Origin: an uncultured Bacteroidales bacterium
Lineage (GTDB): Bacteria; Bacteroidota; Bacteroidia; Bacteroidales; F082
Length of the DNA stretch: 64,000 nucleotides
Direction of reading: 5' to 3'
NCBI GenBank assembly: GCA_900317055.1
Contig: ONFF01000001.1
Location: forward strand, 1-64,000
Part shown: one piece after another, positions 8,425-20,663 of the stretch
How the letters are laid out: each line of letters opens with the position of its first letter
Position numbering within the stretch: position 1 is the first letter of the stretch
Notes under the pieces: model-generated
Database searches by the model: none
What the model saw: only the letters and a program-made list of their open reading frames with translations
Told to the model about the DNA's origin: nothing
Made by a program: the position numbers and the translations under genes

Positions 8425-11196
8425 TTATAATTTCACGATTTTAGTGGTTGTGCAGCCCTGTTCGGTTGCAGCCTCGATGAAATAGCATCCTTGGGGTTGA
8501 GCCGAAAGGTCAATGGTGATGTTGTCTTCGAGCGCTGTTTGGCAAACCACGGTTTGTCCCATTATGTTGAAAACTCTGATTTGACGAAGTCCGTCGGCTT
8601 CGATGGTGACGGTGTTCTTGGTCGGGTTGGGGTAAATGCTAATGTTTTGGTCGGCATTGTTTTCGTTAACATCCGTGGTCCAATCCACATACACGACATT
8701 GGAAGGGTTGGATTCGAGATGGGCGGTGTATCCTGTGATGGTGTAATTGTATGTTTCACCAATAGTAGAGGTATAATCGACGAAAGCATGTCCTGTTACG
8801 CCATGGGCAATGTGTTCTCCGTTGCGGTAGACATTGTAGCCTTCCGCCAATGTGCCTTCTTCCCATTCTAGGATGACACGGCCTTCATGGATGATGAAGT
8901 CGAGGTGCTGCGGGATGATGGTCTTGTTGAATTCCACAAAGTTCAGCTCGGGATGTCCTGCTGCAGTAGCATACCCTGACTCGCAATGGGTCTCTTGATA
9001 GTAGGCTGCGCAAGTATATTCGTAGAGGCCATCGGGCTGAGCGGAGAGGTTGTCTGTATAATTGGTGTTTGAAGTCAGCTTGATGCGCTTGAACTCTCCG
9101 CCTTTGGGACGGCGATACACCATGTATCCAGCAACGGACTCGTCTTCAGGGGCATCCCATGTGAGTTTGGCTTTTCCAGGGGTGGTAGCTTCCACTCGTA
9201 AGTTAGTCGGGATAATGCAAGGCGATTCGGGATGATAGCTGCAAGTATTCGAAGGAAGAACCTCACCGCTGAGGGTGAAGGCAGTGACATGATAAGTGTG
9301 GAAAGTTGCTCTAGTGTCATCATCTACGAAGCTGTTTTCTTCGGTCATAGCGTAAAGTAAACCATCGCGAAATACTAAGTAATTGATACTGTTTTCGACA
9401 GGATCCCAAGTCAAGGTCACTTGGTCGTCCAAGATGGTGGCTGTCAAGTGTGTGCCTTCTGTTTCTCCGTCCTTGTCGTCGCATGTGTTATTAATAATGT
9501 AGAACAATCCGTTTTGGATTTCGGAGGAAGAACCGTGGAAATGGGCTTTGAGTGAGCCGTTGCCGTTCTTAACCTTGAAACGGAAGTCTTCGATGGCTTG
9601 ATCGGGTTTCATCCATTGGATCTCGATGTGGCCAAGTGGTAAGGTGATGGTACGAGTGTCCTCGGCAGATTCGAGTGAAAGGTGGGCAACCTCATCGCCA
9701 GCACTGTTGACGAAGGAAAGTGCTCCACCATTCCATCCTTGCGAACTGGAGGAAGTCATTTCAACTGTCCATTGGCATGTGGGCCCTAAAAGGATGTTTT
9801 TCACCGTGGCGGTCAAACCCATGGCATTGTGGACAACAGCGTAAACGCAATAATCCACCATTCTGGGAAGATAATGGTCGGTATAGCTCATCTCAGCTCC
9901 AGGAACCACATTGTCTTCGGTATAGATGATTTTGCCGTTGCGGGTAATGACAATTTGATCGATATTGGTAAGGTCTTGCATGTGAATGTCTTGGGTGGGA
10001 TTGGTCCATGTCAGGGTGGCGGCATAGTCGAAGTCGCCGCTGGGGCTGACAGCGAGGTTTTCGGGTTGCAAGGGCATGTATTCATAGACATCAGAAGGCA
10101 CATAGTTGAACACGGCTTGGGCCCAGCCTGCATAATCGATTTCATCGATGACGAAATAACCGTCGCTGCTGCCGCCCCAACCCCAGTTGAAGTGGAAAAG
10201 GTCGCTGTCATCGTAACCATCGCATACGAAAGCATGGCCGCCACTGTTACTGAAACCAGAATAATAGACAGGCCAACCAATGTCGTGTGATTCCTTCAGC
10301 ATGTTCTGCCAATTAAGCAGTGAGTACCCCTCACGCCACCTGAGGTCAGCATGGCTCGAGTAGGAAAAATAATCCTTAATTGCATCTGGCACATCCCATG
10401 AGTTGGCACCGCTGCCGCTGGGTGAGAACTGCATTTCGACAGACACACCACAATGATACATAAACAATGCTACAGCCTCAATCTCTTGCTGTGAGGCTCC
10501 ATTGAGTCGGTCGGGCATGTGCTCCCAATCGTATGTGGTCTCGCCGAAATTGGCCGACTGTGTTCCATAGCCAGGGCAGTAATAGGAATAGCTTCCCGTG
10601 CCTTGCAATGGGTGGTTCCAGCGCTTCATTACCTGACTCATGGCCGTGGCTACGCAGCCTGCATAGCAACGGTTGCCTGGACCTCCGTTGGATTCGGGAG
10701 CGTACAGGTTGTAGGGAGAGTCTTGGTTCCACTTGGTGGTGCAGATGTAGTCGACGGCACGGCCTCCGTTGCGCGAAAGCAGACGACCCGTAGTGGCTAC
10801 GCTTTGCCATTCCTCTTCGGTGTCGTCGAAGAGGACGACATTGCGGCTGGTGCGGGCTTCGATGATTTTGTCCAAGTAAAACATCAACTCGGGCGATGGG
10901 TTCTCTGTCTCAAACGGGCCTTCGTCGGAATAGCCCACGATGGGACGAAAACGGTCGTCGGCTGAAACGATGACGAAACCACCTTCACCCACGTTGAAGG
11001 CATAGAAACAGGTTTCGCCACGGCTTGACAAGCCTGTGTAAACCAGCTGTAAATCGCTACCTCTCAGATTGCTGTCGAAGTTGGCTTGGGCAAATCTCTG
11101 CCCGATAGTCTTAGCTCTTGCCGCGTCGATGGGACGGGCGCTCAGTGTAGTCATGCTCAAAAGCACGACGAGGCTTAATAGTAGGGATTTCTTCAT
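8425..11196 (-). CDS. Secreted C10 (streptopain-like) cysteine protease with FN3 domains and T9SS sorting domain
   Basis: This 923-residue protein begins with a signal peptide (to about residue 20). A Spi-type inhibitory propeptide follows (about 22-145, including GGFVIVSADDRFRPIVGYS). The C10 catalytic domain has CYAGCVATAMSQVM with Cys181, GGHAFVCDGYD with His321, and FNWGWGG around 336-342. Several FN3-like domains fill about 375-830. The C-terminus (ISIYPNPTKNTVTIE to the end) is a T9SS type A sorting domain, so the protein should be exported across the outer membrane and probably surface-attached. C10 zymogens are normally activated by cleavage of the propeptide. It is first in a run with two C1B peptidases. 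Confidence 0.92.
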   Translation of the reverse strand: MKKSLLLSLVVLLSMTTLSARPIDAARAKTIGQRFAQANFDSNLRGSDLQLVYTGLSSRGETCFYAFNVGEGGFVIVSADDRFRPIVGYSDEGPFETENPSPELMFYLDKIIEARTSRNVVLFDDTEEEWQSVATTGRLLSRNGGRAVDYICTTKWNQDSPYNLYAPESNGGPGNRCYAGCVATAMSQVMKRWNHPLQGTGSYSYYCPGYGTQSANFGETTYDWEHMPDRLNGASQQEIEAVALFMYHCGVSVEMQFSPSGSGANSWDVPDAIKDYFSYSSHADLRWREGYSLLNWQNMLKESHDIGWPVYYSGFSNSGGHAFVCDGYDDSDLFHFNWGWGGSSDGYFVIDEIDYAGWAQAVFNYVPSDVYEYMPLQPENLAVSPSGDFDYAATLTWTNPTQDIHMQDLTNIDQIVITRNGKIIYTEDNVVPGAEMSYTDHYLPRMVDYCVYAVVHNAMGLTATVKNILLGPTCQWTVEMTSSSSQGWNGGALSFVNSAGDEVAHLSLESAEDTRTITLPLGHIEIQWMKPDQAIEDFRFKVKNGNGSLKAHFHGSSSEIQNGLFYIINNTCDDKDGETEGTHLTATILDDQVTLTWDPVENSINYLVFRDGLLYAMTEENSFVDDDTRATFHTYHVTAFTLSGEVLPSNTCSYHPESPCIIPTNLRVEATTPGKAKLTWDAPEDESVAGYMVYRRPKGGEFKRIKLTSNTNYTDNLSAQPDGLYEYTCAAYYQETHCESGYATAAGHPELNFVEFNKTIIPQHLDFIIHEGRVILEWEEGTLAEGYNVYRNGEHIAHGVTGHAFVDYTSTIGETYNYTITGYTAHLESNPSNVVYVDWTTDVNENNADQNISIYPNPTKNTVTIEADGLRQIRVFNIMGQTVVCQTALEDNITIDLSAQPQGCYFIEAATEQGCTTTKIVKL

Positions 11197-13534: not shown

Positions 13535-16105
13535 ATGATGAAACGCTCGTTTGTTTTTTCTTTGCTGTTTTTTGCGATTCTTGGAAACTTATCTGCCCAA
13601 GAGCACCGGCGTTATGCCTTGATTTGGCACGATGAGTTCGATTCTGGGATTTTGGACAGCAAGGTATGGTCAAAGATATATCGCAGCAAAGCCGATTGGG
13701 CCATCCACATGTCGTCGCACGATACGCTATATGCTTTCGACGATGGCGACCTCGTGTTGCGCGGCATGGTGAATGACTTTCTGCCTAATGACAAGGCGCC
13801 GTTTCTTACTGGGGGAGTGTGGGGCCGATATAAAAAGTCTTTCGGCTTCGGAAGGGTTGAGATACGGGCCAAGTTTGATGTGGCGCAAGGTTTTTGGCCT
13901 GCCATTTGGATGATGCCTGATGCCAACCAAAGTATAAATTGGCCTCATGGTGGCGAAATTGACATCATGGAGCATTTTAGGGACAATCCCTATATCAATC
14001 ATACGGTTCATAGCTATTACACCGTTAATTTGAACAAACGCTACCGTCCAACACATGTGGCATATCCGAAATATAATGAAGGAGAATACAACACCTACGC
14101 CATGGAGCGTTTTCAAGACAGCCTCGTGTTTTTTCTCAACGGGAAACGGACATTCAACTATCCCCGTTTCCGAAAGGGTGAGAACGGCCAGTTTCCTTTT
14201 AGCCAACATGACTATTATCTGATCCTTGATGCACAATTGGGTCGCGACCGTTCACCTTACATTGACACAACCAAACTACCAGTGGAACTACGCATAGATT
14301 ATGTGCGCTATTATGAATTGGACACCAAGACGGATGTGATTCCGGAACCGAAAGAGTTTAAGCAGTTGGGCACAAAAAGGAAAAGACTGAGAAAGGTGGT
14401 TTACGATGCCAATACCCATTTCGATAATCCCGATGAATACCGCTTGGTGGTGAAATGTGGCAAGGCGACCATTTCGGGCAATCCCTATTGGGCGCAAAGC
14501 ACTTTGGCACAGTTGGTGGATGAAGATTGTCGCATTTCCGATCTGGAAGTTCACGACTGGGCTTCATATCCTTTCCGAGGCTTCATGCACGACACGGGGC
14601 GCAACTACCAGCCCATCAGTAAGTTGAAGGAAACACTCGATTTGATGAGTTTCTACAAGTTGAACTATTTTCATTGGCACTTGACCGATTATCCTGCATG
14701 GCGCATCGAGTGTAGGGTTTATCCGCAACTCAATGATCCTCAATATCAAAGGCCAGGTCGCGACGAGGGTAAGTTTTACACATACGATGAAATCCGAGAG
14801 GTGATAGCCTATGCTAAAGAACGGGGAATCACTGTAGTGCCTGAAATTGACATGCCTGGGCATTCCACCTATTTCAAGAATGCTTTTGGCTTTACGATGA
14901 ACTCTGAACAGGGCCGAAAGGTGTTGGAAAAATGTCTTGAAGAGTTCTTCACCGAAATCCCGAAAAGCGACTGTCCCTACTTCCATATCGGTTCTGATGA
15001 AGTCCATATCGAAGACCCGAAAGGCTTCATGCAATGGATTGAAAACTTGATGGAAAAGTATGACCGCCAGCCTATCGCATGGGATCCTGGTCTGCCAGCC
15101 TCCGACAAAGTGATTCGTCAGATATGGAACGAGGCGGAAGGCTCCAATGCGGCGGCTTCAAACAAAGCGGGGAAATATCTCGATTCCTTTGTGGGTTATT
15201 TGAACTATTACGACCCGATGCTGTTCACAAGCCGTTGTTTCCTGCACACCGCCGCAGCGCAAACCGTTCCCGACACGACCAAGGCTTTGGGAGGCATCCT
15301 CTGCCTTTGGAACGATGTGCGTGTGGATAACAAGGAGAACATCTCGTTGCACAACGGCATGATTAACGGCGTGATGGCTTTTGCAGAGCGTTTTTGGAAC
15401 GGCGGCAATGCCGGAACCATCAAAAACGAGAACCTTCCACCTGGTCCTTTGACTACGGCAGGCTCGCGTTTGGCCAATTTCGAGGAAAAGATGGCTATAC
15501 ACCGCGATCGTTTCCATCAAGACAAAATGAGTTGGATAGCCAATTCACAGATGGAATGGGATGTGCAGATTGATGATAACAAGTCTTTTTTGGCCTACGG
15601 TGGCGCGGTCGATTTGGATGCTTTTTGTCAGGCGCATCATATAATAATAGGTGAACAGGCCTTGGCAAAAGCGCAAACGGTCATTATGGCCGACCAAGAC
15701 ATGGATGTTGAGGTGTGGTTGGGCTTTTGCACGCCAGCACGTTCCAACCGTAATGGTTATGGCATTGGAGAGCAAGGTCATTGGGAAGGCGGTTGCCAAT
15801 GCTTTGTGAACGGCAAAGAGGTGTTGCCGCCAAAGCTATGGAAAGAACCAGGAAAGTACGCGTACCATTTCAACACCTGGGGCAAGCCCGAAGAGGAAGA
15901 ACCTTACACTGATGAACAGCTCTATTGGATGCGGCAACCCGTTCAGATTCATTTGAATAAGGGAGAAAACCAAGTGGAGATCCAGGTGCCGAAGACCTAT
16001 CAAGGGTTACGATGGAGTTTTGGGTTTATTCCTGTTAGGACGCAGGCTGATGGAACGGTGACCGAAGTCTCAGGCATCCATTATAAAAACATTTCCGACA
16101 AGTGA
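13535..16105 (+). CDS. GH16-GH20 fusion: endo-glycosidase plus beta-N-acetylhexosaminidase
   Basis: This 856-residue secreted protein has a signal peptide to about residue 21. Residues about 28-262 form a GH16 domain with the catalytic motif EIDIME (Glu141, Asp143, Glu146) and the flanking WPAIWMMP. Residues about 275-340 resemble the small GH20b domain. They are followed by a GH20 barrel with YFHWHLTDYPAWRIE, VVPEIDMPGHS and the catalytic pair Asp488-Glu489 in HIGSDEVH. A C-terminal beta-rich region (about 690-856) completes it. GH16 enzymes cut internal beta-galactan, poly-LacNAc or glucan bonds, and GH20 removes terminal GlcNAc or GalNAc. Together this suggests host glycan (mucin or keratan-type) breakdown, which is inference. 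No frameshift separates the halves. Confidence 0.87.
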   Translation: MMKRSFVFSLLFFAILGNLSAQEHRRYALIWHDEFDSGILDSKVWSKIYRSKADWAIHMSSHDTLYAFDDGDLVLRGMVNDFLPNDKAPFLTGGVWGRYKKSFGFGRVEIRAKFDVAQGFWPAIWMMPDANQSINWPHGGEIDIMEHFRDNPYINHTVHSYYTVNLNKRYRPTHVAYPKYNEGEYNTYAMERFQDSLVFFLNGKRTFNYPRFRKGENGQFPFSQHDYYLILDAQLGRDRSPYIDTTKLPVELRIDYVRYYELDTKTDVIPEPKEFKQLGTKRKRLRKVVYDANTHFDNPDEYRLVVKCGKATISGNPYWAQSTLAQLVDEDCRISDLEVHDWASYPFRGFMHDTGRNYQPISKLKETLDLMSFYKLNYFHWHLTDYPAWRIECRVYPQLNDPQYQRPGRDEGKFYTYDEIREVIAYAKERGITVVPEIDMPGHSTYFKNAFGFTMNSEQGRKVLEKCLEEFFTEIPKSDCPYFHIGSDEVHIEDPKGFMQWIENLMEKYDRQPIAWDPGLPASDKVIRQIWNEAEGSNAAASNKAGKYLDSFVGYLNYYDPMLFTSRCFLHTAAAQTVPDTTKALGGILCLWNDVRVDNKENISLHNGMINGVMAFAERFWNGGNAGTIKNENLPPGPLTTAGSRLANFEEKMAIHRDRFHQDKMSWIANSQMEWDVQIDDNKSFLAYGGAVDLDAFCQAHHIIIGEQALAKAQTVIMADQDMDVEVWLGFCTPARSNRNGYGIGEQGHWEGGCQCFVNGKEVLPPKLWKEPGKYAYHFNTWGKPEEEEPYTDEQLYWMRQPVQIHLNKGENQVEIQVPKTYQGLRWSFGFIPVRTQADGTVTEVSGIHYKNISDK

Positions 16106-16175: not shown

Positions 16176-17285
16176 TTATCTTCCGTTGTAATTTCCGCTC
16201 AAAGTCTCGATGAAACCGTTGGCGGCGGTCTTCATGTTGACGAAGTCGCTGCCCAAAGAGCTGGAGCAGTCAAGCACGAGCATAATCATTGCGCTCTTGT
16301 ACTCGTTGACGGTTTGCGTATTGCCCGAAGGCGTAAATTCACTGTTGTATTGCCACTGCGATGTCGACTCCAGCCAGTTCCATTGTTTCACATAGTCGGT
16401 GCTGATTTGCGTACCGTTCAGGTCGGTGAGGTTTTGGAACAAGAACAGGTCGAAGATGCCTTCGGTTGAGGCAGTAACGGCAACGCCCGACATGCAATCT
16501 AATCCAACATACTGAATGTCAGTCAACTGACCCCTGTTACCATTGCGGATATAAGTACCTTCAATATAACATTGTGATTCGCTGACATCGGACACATTGT
16601 CGAAGGTGAAGCGAATTCTGGTGTTGGGCTCTTGTGCCGGCAGTTTAAGCGTGACATTGTAGAAGGTGCTTTGGTTGTAAAGCTGTTGGGCGATTTGTGC
16701 AAATTTGTCAGAGGCTTCGTTCATATTGCTGACCTCAAAGACATTGTGGATGGGATCGCTCGACAGTTTGTTCAGACTGTTACGGAAACCCTCGATGTCG
16801 CTCACATCAGAACCACGCACGCCGATGGAATAGGCAGAAATGTTGGAACCACCAATGAGTTCGTTATTGATTCTCGAATTGACGGCGGCCAAGTATTCGC
16901 TGCCCGAGTTGTAGCTTTCGGAAAGCACATAAGAACCTTGGTCGAGGCCATCGGTGAAGGTCACCACGGAGACATTGATGAGGTTTTCCGGGATTTTGGC
17001 TGCGGCCAAACTGTTGAGGCCCGTGTTGACGGCATGGTATAGGATGGTACCGTTCTGCATCGAAAGCCCGTCAACAAAATTCTCGAAGTTATGCTTCGTA
17101 TCCTGGTTGAGCAGGCCGAGCGGCATGGTGTAAAGCTCGCTGTTGAAGCCTACAATGCCCAAATAAAGGCCTTCCTTGGCTGGAGTGTTGTCTTCTGCTT
17201 TGGGCTTTCTGCAACTGGTGAAGGTGGTGAGGGTGACAACAAGTGCCAAAACAGCCACCGATAAGATGTGTTTTTTCATATTCAT
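16176..17285 (-). CDS. Lipoprotein with an apparently circularly permuted VWA domain
   Basis: This 369-residue protein starts with a signal peptide ending in a lipobox-like FTSC (Cys25). Residues about 39-205 read like the back part of a VWA domain: LGIVGFNSELYTMPLGLL (strand 2), NGTILYHAV with MIDAS Thr80, and VVTFTDGLDQGS with MIDAS Asp112. The front part normally comes first, a hydrophobic strand with DxSxS and helix 1. Here it lies at the very end, MIMLVLDCSSSLG (Asp339, Ser341, Ser343). About 120 beta-rich residues join the two. This is consistent with a circular permutation. A truncated tandem VWA is the alternative. Function is unknown; metal-dependent protein binding at the cell surface is plausible. 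Confidence 0.75.
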   Translation of the reverse strand: MNMKKHILSVAVLALVVTLTTFTSCRKPKAEDNTPAKEGLYLGIVGFNSELYTMPLGLLNQDTKHNFENFVDGLSMQNGTILYHAVNTGLNSLAAAKIPENLINVSVVTFTDGLDQGSYVLSESYNSGSEYLAAVNSRINNELIGGSNISAYSIGVRGSDVSDIEGFRNSLNKLSSDPIHNVFEVSNMNEASDKFAQIAQQLYNQSTFYNVTLKLPAQEPNTRIRFTFDNVSDVSESQCYIEGTYIRNGNRGQLTDIQYVGLDCMSGVAVTASTEGIFDLFLFQNLTDLNGTQISTDYVKQWNWLESTSQWQYNSEFTPSGNTQTVNEYKSAMIMLVLDCSSSLGSDFVNMKTAANGFIETLSGNYNGR

Positions 17286-19538: not shown

Positions 19539-20663
19539 TTATTTTCTTAGCCACAATCCAAAAAACCGATCATACACGCTGTATCCGTCCTCGTCTTCGG
19601 CAACAAGTTCTTTGTCGATGAGGACACGGAGAGCGCTTCTTACGGTGCTGGCTGGTCCAGGTTGGTGTTTTTGCAGAAACTCTTGACTTCCGATTTCTCT
19701 TACTTTCCCCTCATGGGCGATGGCTTTAATGAGTGCCAACTGATTGGATGTAAGTAGCTTGCAGTAGGTTCTGAACGACTCTTTGTATTCTTCTAAAATG
19801 TCATCCACGGTTGAGGCTAAGGCTTGTTTGTCGATTAGGCGCATCCCGTATTGGTAAAGCCGGTTCAGTATGCATTGGATATACCAAGTGTGGCCATAAA
19901 CGGTGGTGTACAATTCATGGAAGGTTTCTTGTGGTAACATCTGCTTATTGCACTCAAAATGGCGTTGGGCAAACTCCAAATAAGTGTCTTCGGGGATTTC
20001 GTATAAGGGGAGCATTTGCGTGCTTTGGAAAAACGGACGGTTGGCAGTCATGAACATTTCCGTCATTATATGCTTTTGGCTACCCGCAAAAATGAAGTTG
20101 ACATTGGTAAGATGCTGTATGTGGCTACGCAGCAGAGCCTCCATCTTTGGCTCGGGATAGTCGGTGATGACTTGAAACTCATCGAATGCAACATAACACG
20201 GCAGTTTCGACTTTTCCAACCAGCCGAAAATCTCGTCCAACGAAGCTTCTGCTTCAGTCGGCTTGATGTCAAGGCTGATTTGTGGTGCACCCGTTGATGG
20301 TTCGGCGGACAGAACAGGTCGCAGCGACTTGAACCACGATAAGATTTCTTTCCAAACGCGTCCCGAAGGCATCCCAATTTGCTTCAATACGACCTTGCCG
20401 AAAGCTTGTACCAAGTCAGCGAGGCAAGTGGTTTGATCCAAGTCGACGTAAAAGCAATTTGCTTCTTTTGGGTCAATTTTTCCAAAAATATGCTTGATTA
20501 ACCCCGTTTTTCCCATTCTTCTTGGGCTAATTAGGGTTACATTTCGACCATTTTTGAGTGCTTCTATAAGTCGTTTTGTCTCGTTTTCTCGGTCACAGAA
20601 GTAGTCGCTTCCAAGATAGGCAAGTACGGAGAATGGGTTGAAATCTTTTGTTTTACCAGACAT
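19539..20663 (-). CDS. AAA ATPase (ATPase_2 / archaeal-type NTPase family)
   Basis: This 374-residue protein has a Walker A motif in ISPRRMGKTGLIKH (about 45-58) and a Walker B-like strand in LPCYVAFDEFQVI (DEF). A sensor-like NFIFAGSQKHIM follows. A winged-helix-like C-terminus (about 290-374) contains a REIGSQEFLQKHQPG..TVRSALRVLIDKELV pattern. Such NTPases occur in many copies in Bacteroidales and archaea. Their roles are largely unknown. It stands alone with a distinctive leader carrying palindromic iterons (20704-20733). Confidence 0.85.
   Translation of the reverse strand: MSGKTKDFNPFSVLAYLGSDYFCDRENETKRLIEALKNGRNVTLISPRRMGKTGLIKHIFGKIDPKEANCFYVDLDQTTCLADLVQAFGKVVLKQIGMPSGRVWKEILSWFKSLRPVLSAEPSTGAPQISLDIKPTEAEASLDEIFGWLEKSKLPCYVAFDEFQVITDYPEPKMEALLRSHIQHLTNVNFIFAGSQKHIMTEMFMTANRPFFQSTQMLPLYEIPEDTYLEFAQRHFECNKQMLPQETFHELYTTVYGHTWYIQCILNRLYQYGMRLIDKQALASTVDDILEEYKESFRTYCKLLTSNQLALIKAIAHEGKVREIGSQEFLQKHQPGPASTVRSALRVLIDKELVAEDEDGYSVYDRFFGLWLRK

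Follow-up and report, generated by a model that had tools for sequence, protein, structure and literature searches.

A lipoprotein gene of an uncultured Bacteroidales bacterium probably encodes a naturally circularly permuted VWA domain

VWA domains are spread throughout all life, and in the integrin beta subunit and in pilus adhesins the VWA domain is an insert. The VWA domains closest in architecture to the one described here are the integrin β I-like domain, which lies in the hybrid domain, and those of SpaC, RrgA, GBS104 and Mfa5. All of these were found among the structural matches of our protein, and they likewise carry a VWA domain with a MIDAS beside β domains. The nesting is different: there the VWA domain is inserted, whereas here the β segments are inserted in the VWA domain. 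Compared with the ordinary VWA or integrin I domain (PF00092), the present protein differs in that β1-α1 is C-terminal. Natural permutation of an α/β fold has been described for circularly permuted GTPases such as cpRAS, but in a different fold (PMC2430557), and the accessible part of that paper describes VWA as a neighbouring domain, not as a permuted one. In the accessible parts of four further papers, either other permutations or VWA proteins not termed permuted were found (PMC7824862, PMC9503650, PMC8195603 and PMC7911831), and another was without mention of Willebrand, VWA, integrin or Rossmann (PMC12667903). No permuted VWA domain was found in the literature searched, which left most subscription papers outside, so that this absence is not proof. 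The combination of FISUMP with von Willebrand likewise returned nothing in that literature.

The window (the whole analysed stretch of 64,000 nucleotides) carries the gene at 16176..17285 on the minus strand, encoding 369 amino acids from the ATG at 17285 to the stop at 16178-16176. The plus strand of this interval is interrupted by stops, while the reverse strand is a single ORF. The protein starts with a lipoprotein signal peptide (residues 1–24) and the lipobox Cys25 (17211..17285; codon 17213-17211), the lipobox motif being FTSC. Cys25 was invariant in a 22-row alignment, and the signal peptide and lipobox of a bacterial lipoprotein were thus both present, the signal and the motif being judged by eye. 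No clear surface-export signal was seen by eye after Cys25. The second part of the VWA domain, β2 to α6, follows at residues 38–207 (16665..17174, minus), with the MIDAS Thr80 in NGT (17046..17048) and the MIDAS Asp112 in TFTDGLD (16950..16952). The first part, β1-α1, lies at residues 328–366 (16188..16304, minus), as placed by the normal-order profile, the family model and the structure model. It contains the MIDAS motif DxSxS as DCSSS (Asp339–Ser343; 16257..16271), with a helix predicted directly after it. The original prediction had placed the DxSxS strand and first helix at the C-terminus and the Thr and Asp in the N-terminal half after the lipobox, joined by a β-rich link of about 120 residues; this order and the link, residues 208–327, were both borne out.

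The Pfam VWA model PF00092 matched the protein in two stretches with 32.3 bits against a cut-off of 23.8, the best stretch being residues 38–193 on profile positions 36–170. VWA_2 aligned residues 334–365 with profile positions 1–38, at 15.7 below its cut-off of 27. The profile match and the MIDAS DxSxS, Thr and Asp of a VWA domain are therefore present, but the order β1 to α6 is not; because β2..α6 come before β1-α1, the protein was filed as a permuted VWA variant. NCBIfam held no family for it. Among other candidates, Glyco_hydro_2_N (E 0.063) was under its cut-off, and ribosomal S3 in the PDB sequence search gave weak matches alone (best E 0.018), judged to be chance. In Pfam scans, the VWA cut-off was passed by one of seven permuted relatives; three others gave sub-cut-off VWA matches, and L056, L059 and L064 had no VWA match at E 0.01. 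All three normal-order relatives scanned passed it, which indicates that linear profiles cope badly with permuted VWA proteins.

Relatives with the normal order were found in Bacteroidota (L069–L080 and L120–L125). By profile they have the same βN, VWA and βC, but arranged as βN, β1-α1, β2..α6 and βC. Three of them (L074, L124 and L125) are lipoproteins by eye, like the window protein, and the others carry an extra C-terminal β-rich segment that by eye resembles an outer-membrane barrel; Pfam gave no outer-membrane barrel match in L072 or L120. Two further normal-order relatives, L119 (G558) and L131 (G707:C120), were divided between two ORFs.

A profile built from 12 normal-order proteins alone matched the window gene as two separate pieces whose order is exchanged, with E values of 2e-26 and 7e-20, the latter for profile positions 2–137 (βN plus β1-α1) on the C-terminal part. 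The family model gave an i-Evalue of 6e-24 for this part, a model that includes the window protein itself. When the permuted family was aligned by hhalign with an 18-sequence normal-order profile, two pieces of 191 and 128 columns were obtained (scores 252 and 165), whereas the same profile doubled gave a single path that covered 319 columns without a break (score 408, E 7.3e-54). The membrane-type template on its own, doubled, gave 319 columns (E 1.7e-53), and the lipoprotein-type template gave 277 columns doubled (E 2.2e-18) and shorter pieces of 141 and 83 columns undoubled. Normal-order families compared with each other, in two doubled and one single comparison, were collinear without a rotated path. 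By hhalign, βC (residues 208–231; 16593..16664, minus) corresponded to the piece after the VWA domain in the normal-order relatives, and βN (residues 239–327; 16305..16571, minus) to the piece before it, both also with the membrane-type template; the aligned stretches were residues 208–229 and those from 240 onward. The old termini are joined at about residues 232–238, and the rotated unit is the whole βN-VWA-βC, beyond the VWA domain alone.

The order was further examined with two piece models. Counting duplicates, 91 ORFs had the β2-α6 piece ahead of β1-α1, and 24 had the reverse order. As these models were built from the permuted family, they are evidence of order and not independent evidence of homology. 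Among the permuted rows listed, the two pieces were separated by 119–133 residues where the β segment was present and by 1–3 where it was not, and the gap was 2–6 residues in the 24 normal-order rows (18 unique ORFs), some of which share genomes with permuted forms. Circular permutation was therefore strongly supported by the normal-order-only profile, the doubled-template test with its controls, and the normal-order relatives in the same genomes. Order, homology and conservation are the demonstrated parts of the case, and the window gene very probably encodes a naturally circularly permuted VWA lipoprotein.

The structure models were predicted from a shallow alignment of 22 rows with 77–98% identity (21 of the 24 orthologue loci plus the window protein; L002, L020 and L024 were left out). 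The first AlphaFold model of the full chain (pLDDT 66, pTM 0.52) was poorer than the second, whose best prediction had pLDDT 70 and pTM 0.55 and whose other four had pLDDT 52–66. In the first, residues 332–338 formed a strand and 342–363 a helix. In the second, residues 36–204 superposed on residues 175–333 of the integrin alpha1 I domain with an rmsd of 2.6 over 149 residues, at a pLDDT of 50–75 in the VWA part; this integrin I-domain comparison (VIA) was limited to the chains ranked by Foldseek. Beta-amylase and a C3 convertase chain, the single Foldseek match below E 0.001 for each model, both had low TM and were rejected. Residues about 214–313 of the second model formed one confident β block (block pLDDT 82–95). 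Since βC and βN lie in one block, the parent VWA domain was presumably an insert in one β domain, and here the β domain is the insert.

The parent mature chain would thus have run βN, β1, α1, β2 to α6 and βC, with the VWA domain between two β segments. Its old ends would have been fused through a few residues, and the chain reopened in the α1-β2 loop. The product is a lipid anchor on the Cys followed by β2 to α6, βC, βN, β1 and α1, in which the β segments lie inside the VWA domain and both connections between VWA and β segments, α6-βC and βN-β1, are retained. The C-terminal β1-α1 would be expected to fold back, so that both the central sheet and the metal site become complete. Alternatively, β1-α1 might complete the VWA domain of another molecule, so that swapped dimers or chains linked head to tail would arise. 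Donor-strand lipoprotein pili are known from Bacteroidales, and the 120-residue segment does leave β1-α1 at a free chain end. However, both connections are as in the normal-order relatives, in which they are intramolecular by virtue of the order, the link is just 1–3 residues in two forms without the β segment, and in many longer relatives the chain runs on past α1. Swapping was accordingly considered improbable.

The protein is most likely a lipid-anchored module of the cell surface or envelope whose binding would depend on metal. Asp339, Ser343, Thr80 and Asp112 were invariant in all 63 permuted rows with the β segment and in all 18 normal-order rows, while residue 341 was Ser in 51 and Thr in 12 of the permuted rows; these counts are of unique rows (63 permuted with the β segment, two permuted without it and 18 normal-order). 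This invariance, save Ser/Thr at 341, speaks against a permuted fold that no longer works with metal and is a mere scaffold or spacer. In favour of a scaffold, L065–L068 lost MIDAS residues, as judged by eye in these rows, which missed the piece-model thresholds. For the window protein, such a role seems slightly less credible still than swapping. Metal is nevertheless not needed by every permuted member, since L065–L068 lost these residues and L064 is without the MIDAS Thr.

The likely route to the permuted form would be a tandem duplication, in which the first copy lost βN-β1-α1 after the lipobox and the second gained a stop after α1. That the gene is instead what is left of a two-VWA protein after truncation or mis-assembly, with its N- and C-terminal pieces from different VWA domains, would suit such a duplication and the existence of longer homologues, but is very hard to credit given that none of the 91 permuted ORFs held a second copy of either piece (nor did any of the 24 normal-order ORFs; E 0.01, duplicates included), that 23 full-length orthologues occur in other assemblies, that selection was purifying in all eight orthologues compared, and that the start codon is only 75 bases from the upstream gene. 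The original prediction had named longer homologues carrying two full VWA domains as a counter-finding, and these were looked for: ORFs of 492–917 aa exist, but none of the 91 permuted ORFs classified had a second copy of a VWA piece. The other counter-finding it named, a model with the C-terminal DxSxS lying apart from the N-terminal fold, was covered in part, by a model whose confidence in the VWA part is middling.

For a single, permuted VWA domain, a further consequence can tentatively be proposed, though we regard it as less likely than not. The rearrangement may have turned an integrin-beta-like nest inside out, placing the anchor and the added domains on the α1-β2 loop and rewiring the integrin-type coupling. 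If so, the α1-β2 loop, and not α6 with the β domain, would transmit force or ligand binding from the metal site to the anchor.

A scan of genome contigs gave 24 orthologue loci with 77–98% identity, of which 23 were full length and one was a fragment of 87 residues. The permuted order was kept in the 23 full-length orthologues and in the fragment, all from other assemblies. Their titles name uncultured or metagenome-assembled Bacteroidales, Bacteroidia or Salinivirgaceae, and several mention ruminant gut. The dN/dS values were 0.03–0.12 in the eight loci compared out of 24, and the gene is under purifying selection in all eight.

Within the same family, 48 of 149 genomes matched, sorted on fetched ORFs, or on the match range where unfetched, with G140:C110 and the stop-bearing G121:C43 piece left unsorted. 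A permuted form containing the β segment was present in 37 of these genomes, only permuted forms without it in four (G067, G079, G087 and G127), a fragment ending after α1 in one (G133), and normal-order forms only in six. Both orders occurred together in six genomes (G087, G110, G111, G125, G127 and G144). In the same order, 15 of 295 genomes matched, six with permuted forms (G000, G014, G374, G718, G727 and G773) and nine with normal-order or partly covered ones. At class level, three of 395 genomes matched the permuted profile, two of them permuted and both from the same order. At phylum level, five of 345 genomes matched; one was that of the window itself, and the other four gave weak and only partial matches. 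In viral contigs, none of eight pattern matches was a relative. Permuted forms thus appear to span five families of a single order (f1, f4, f110, f155 and f165), in samples that leave room for others. Several paralogues attach further domains at the new C-terminus, after α1. FGE-sulfatase-like (L099), Big_2 (L117) and Fn3 (L059) domains passed the Pfam cut-off, Fn3 in L064 and Lcl_C/FISUMP in L116 were below it, and other long relatives had FISUMP-like tails by eye only.

In a maximum-likelihood tree of the VWA pieces rearranged to the unpermuted order (71 of 92 rows, near-copies removed; L067 absent), the normal-order rows formed one side of a branch (90/99), a support under the tool's star threshold and with some rows on long branches. 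One change of order was obtained in 88% of 200 bootstrap trees, in keeping with a permutation that arose once. The rows without the β segment fell into two separate positions: L130 grouped next to L118, and L064, L065, L066 and L068 lay inside the genus of the window protein, which suggests two later losses of the segment. L130 (G727:C104) is a 307-aa ORF with a permuted VWA domain, a gap of 3 and an intact MIDAS; it lies 3.3 kb from L118, a permuted form with the β segment. L064 has a gap of 1, so that in both L130 and L064 β2-α6 is followed at once by β1. In L064–L068, long C-terminal regions follow the permuted VWA domain without the β segment. As unpermuted relatives still exist, this natural permutation offers a before-and-after series for a widespread fold. 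Given a likely single origin, subsequent domain fusions and members that dropped the β segment, the connections needed for metal binding and domain coupling become directly testable.

Upstream of the permuted gene on the same strand are genes for TSCPD, thioesterase, OsmC-like and DeoC proteins, and at least three of these four were present in 21 of the 24 orthologue loci. L010, L017 and L018 had none of them, L010 and L018 having fewer than 350 bases before the gene. The conserved neighbourhood suggests that within the genus the gene was passed on for the most part vertically; it gives no clue to function. An AAA/ATPase_2-like gene (19539-20663, minus) lies between DeoC and the 4-alpha-glucanotransferase gene; among the 24 loci it was clear only in L021, with a short piece in L016, and in several loci DeoC adjoins the glucanotransferase gene without it. 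After the permuted gene follows a convergent gene, an ORF of 856 aa at 13535-16105 (plus) that unites GH16-like and GH20 domains. This fused ORF was near full length in seven orthologue loci, and others held its N- or C-terminal part only, some at locus ends. In addition, the window encodes a Peptidase C10 with a Spi-type inhibitor propeptide and a Por secretion tail (8425-11196, minus), which is likely a type IX secretion substrate.
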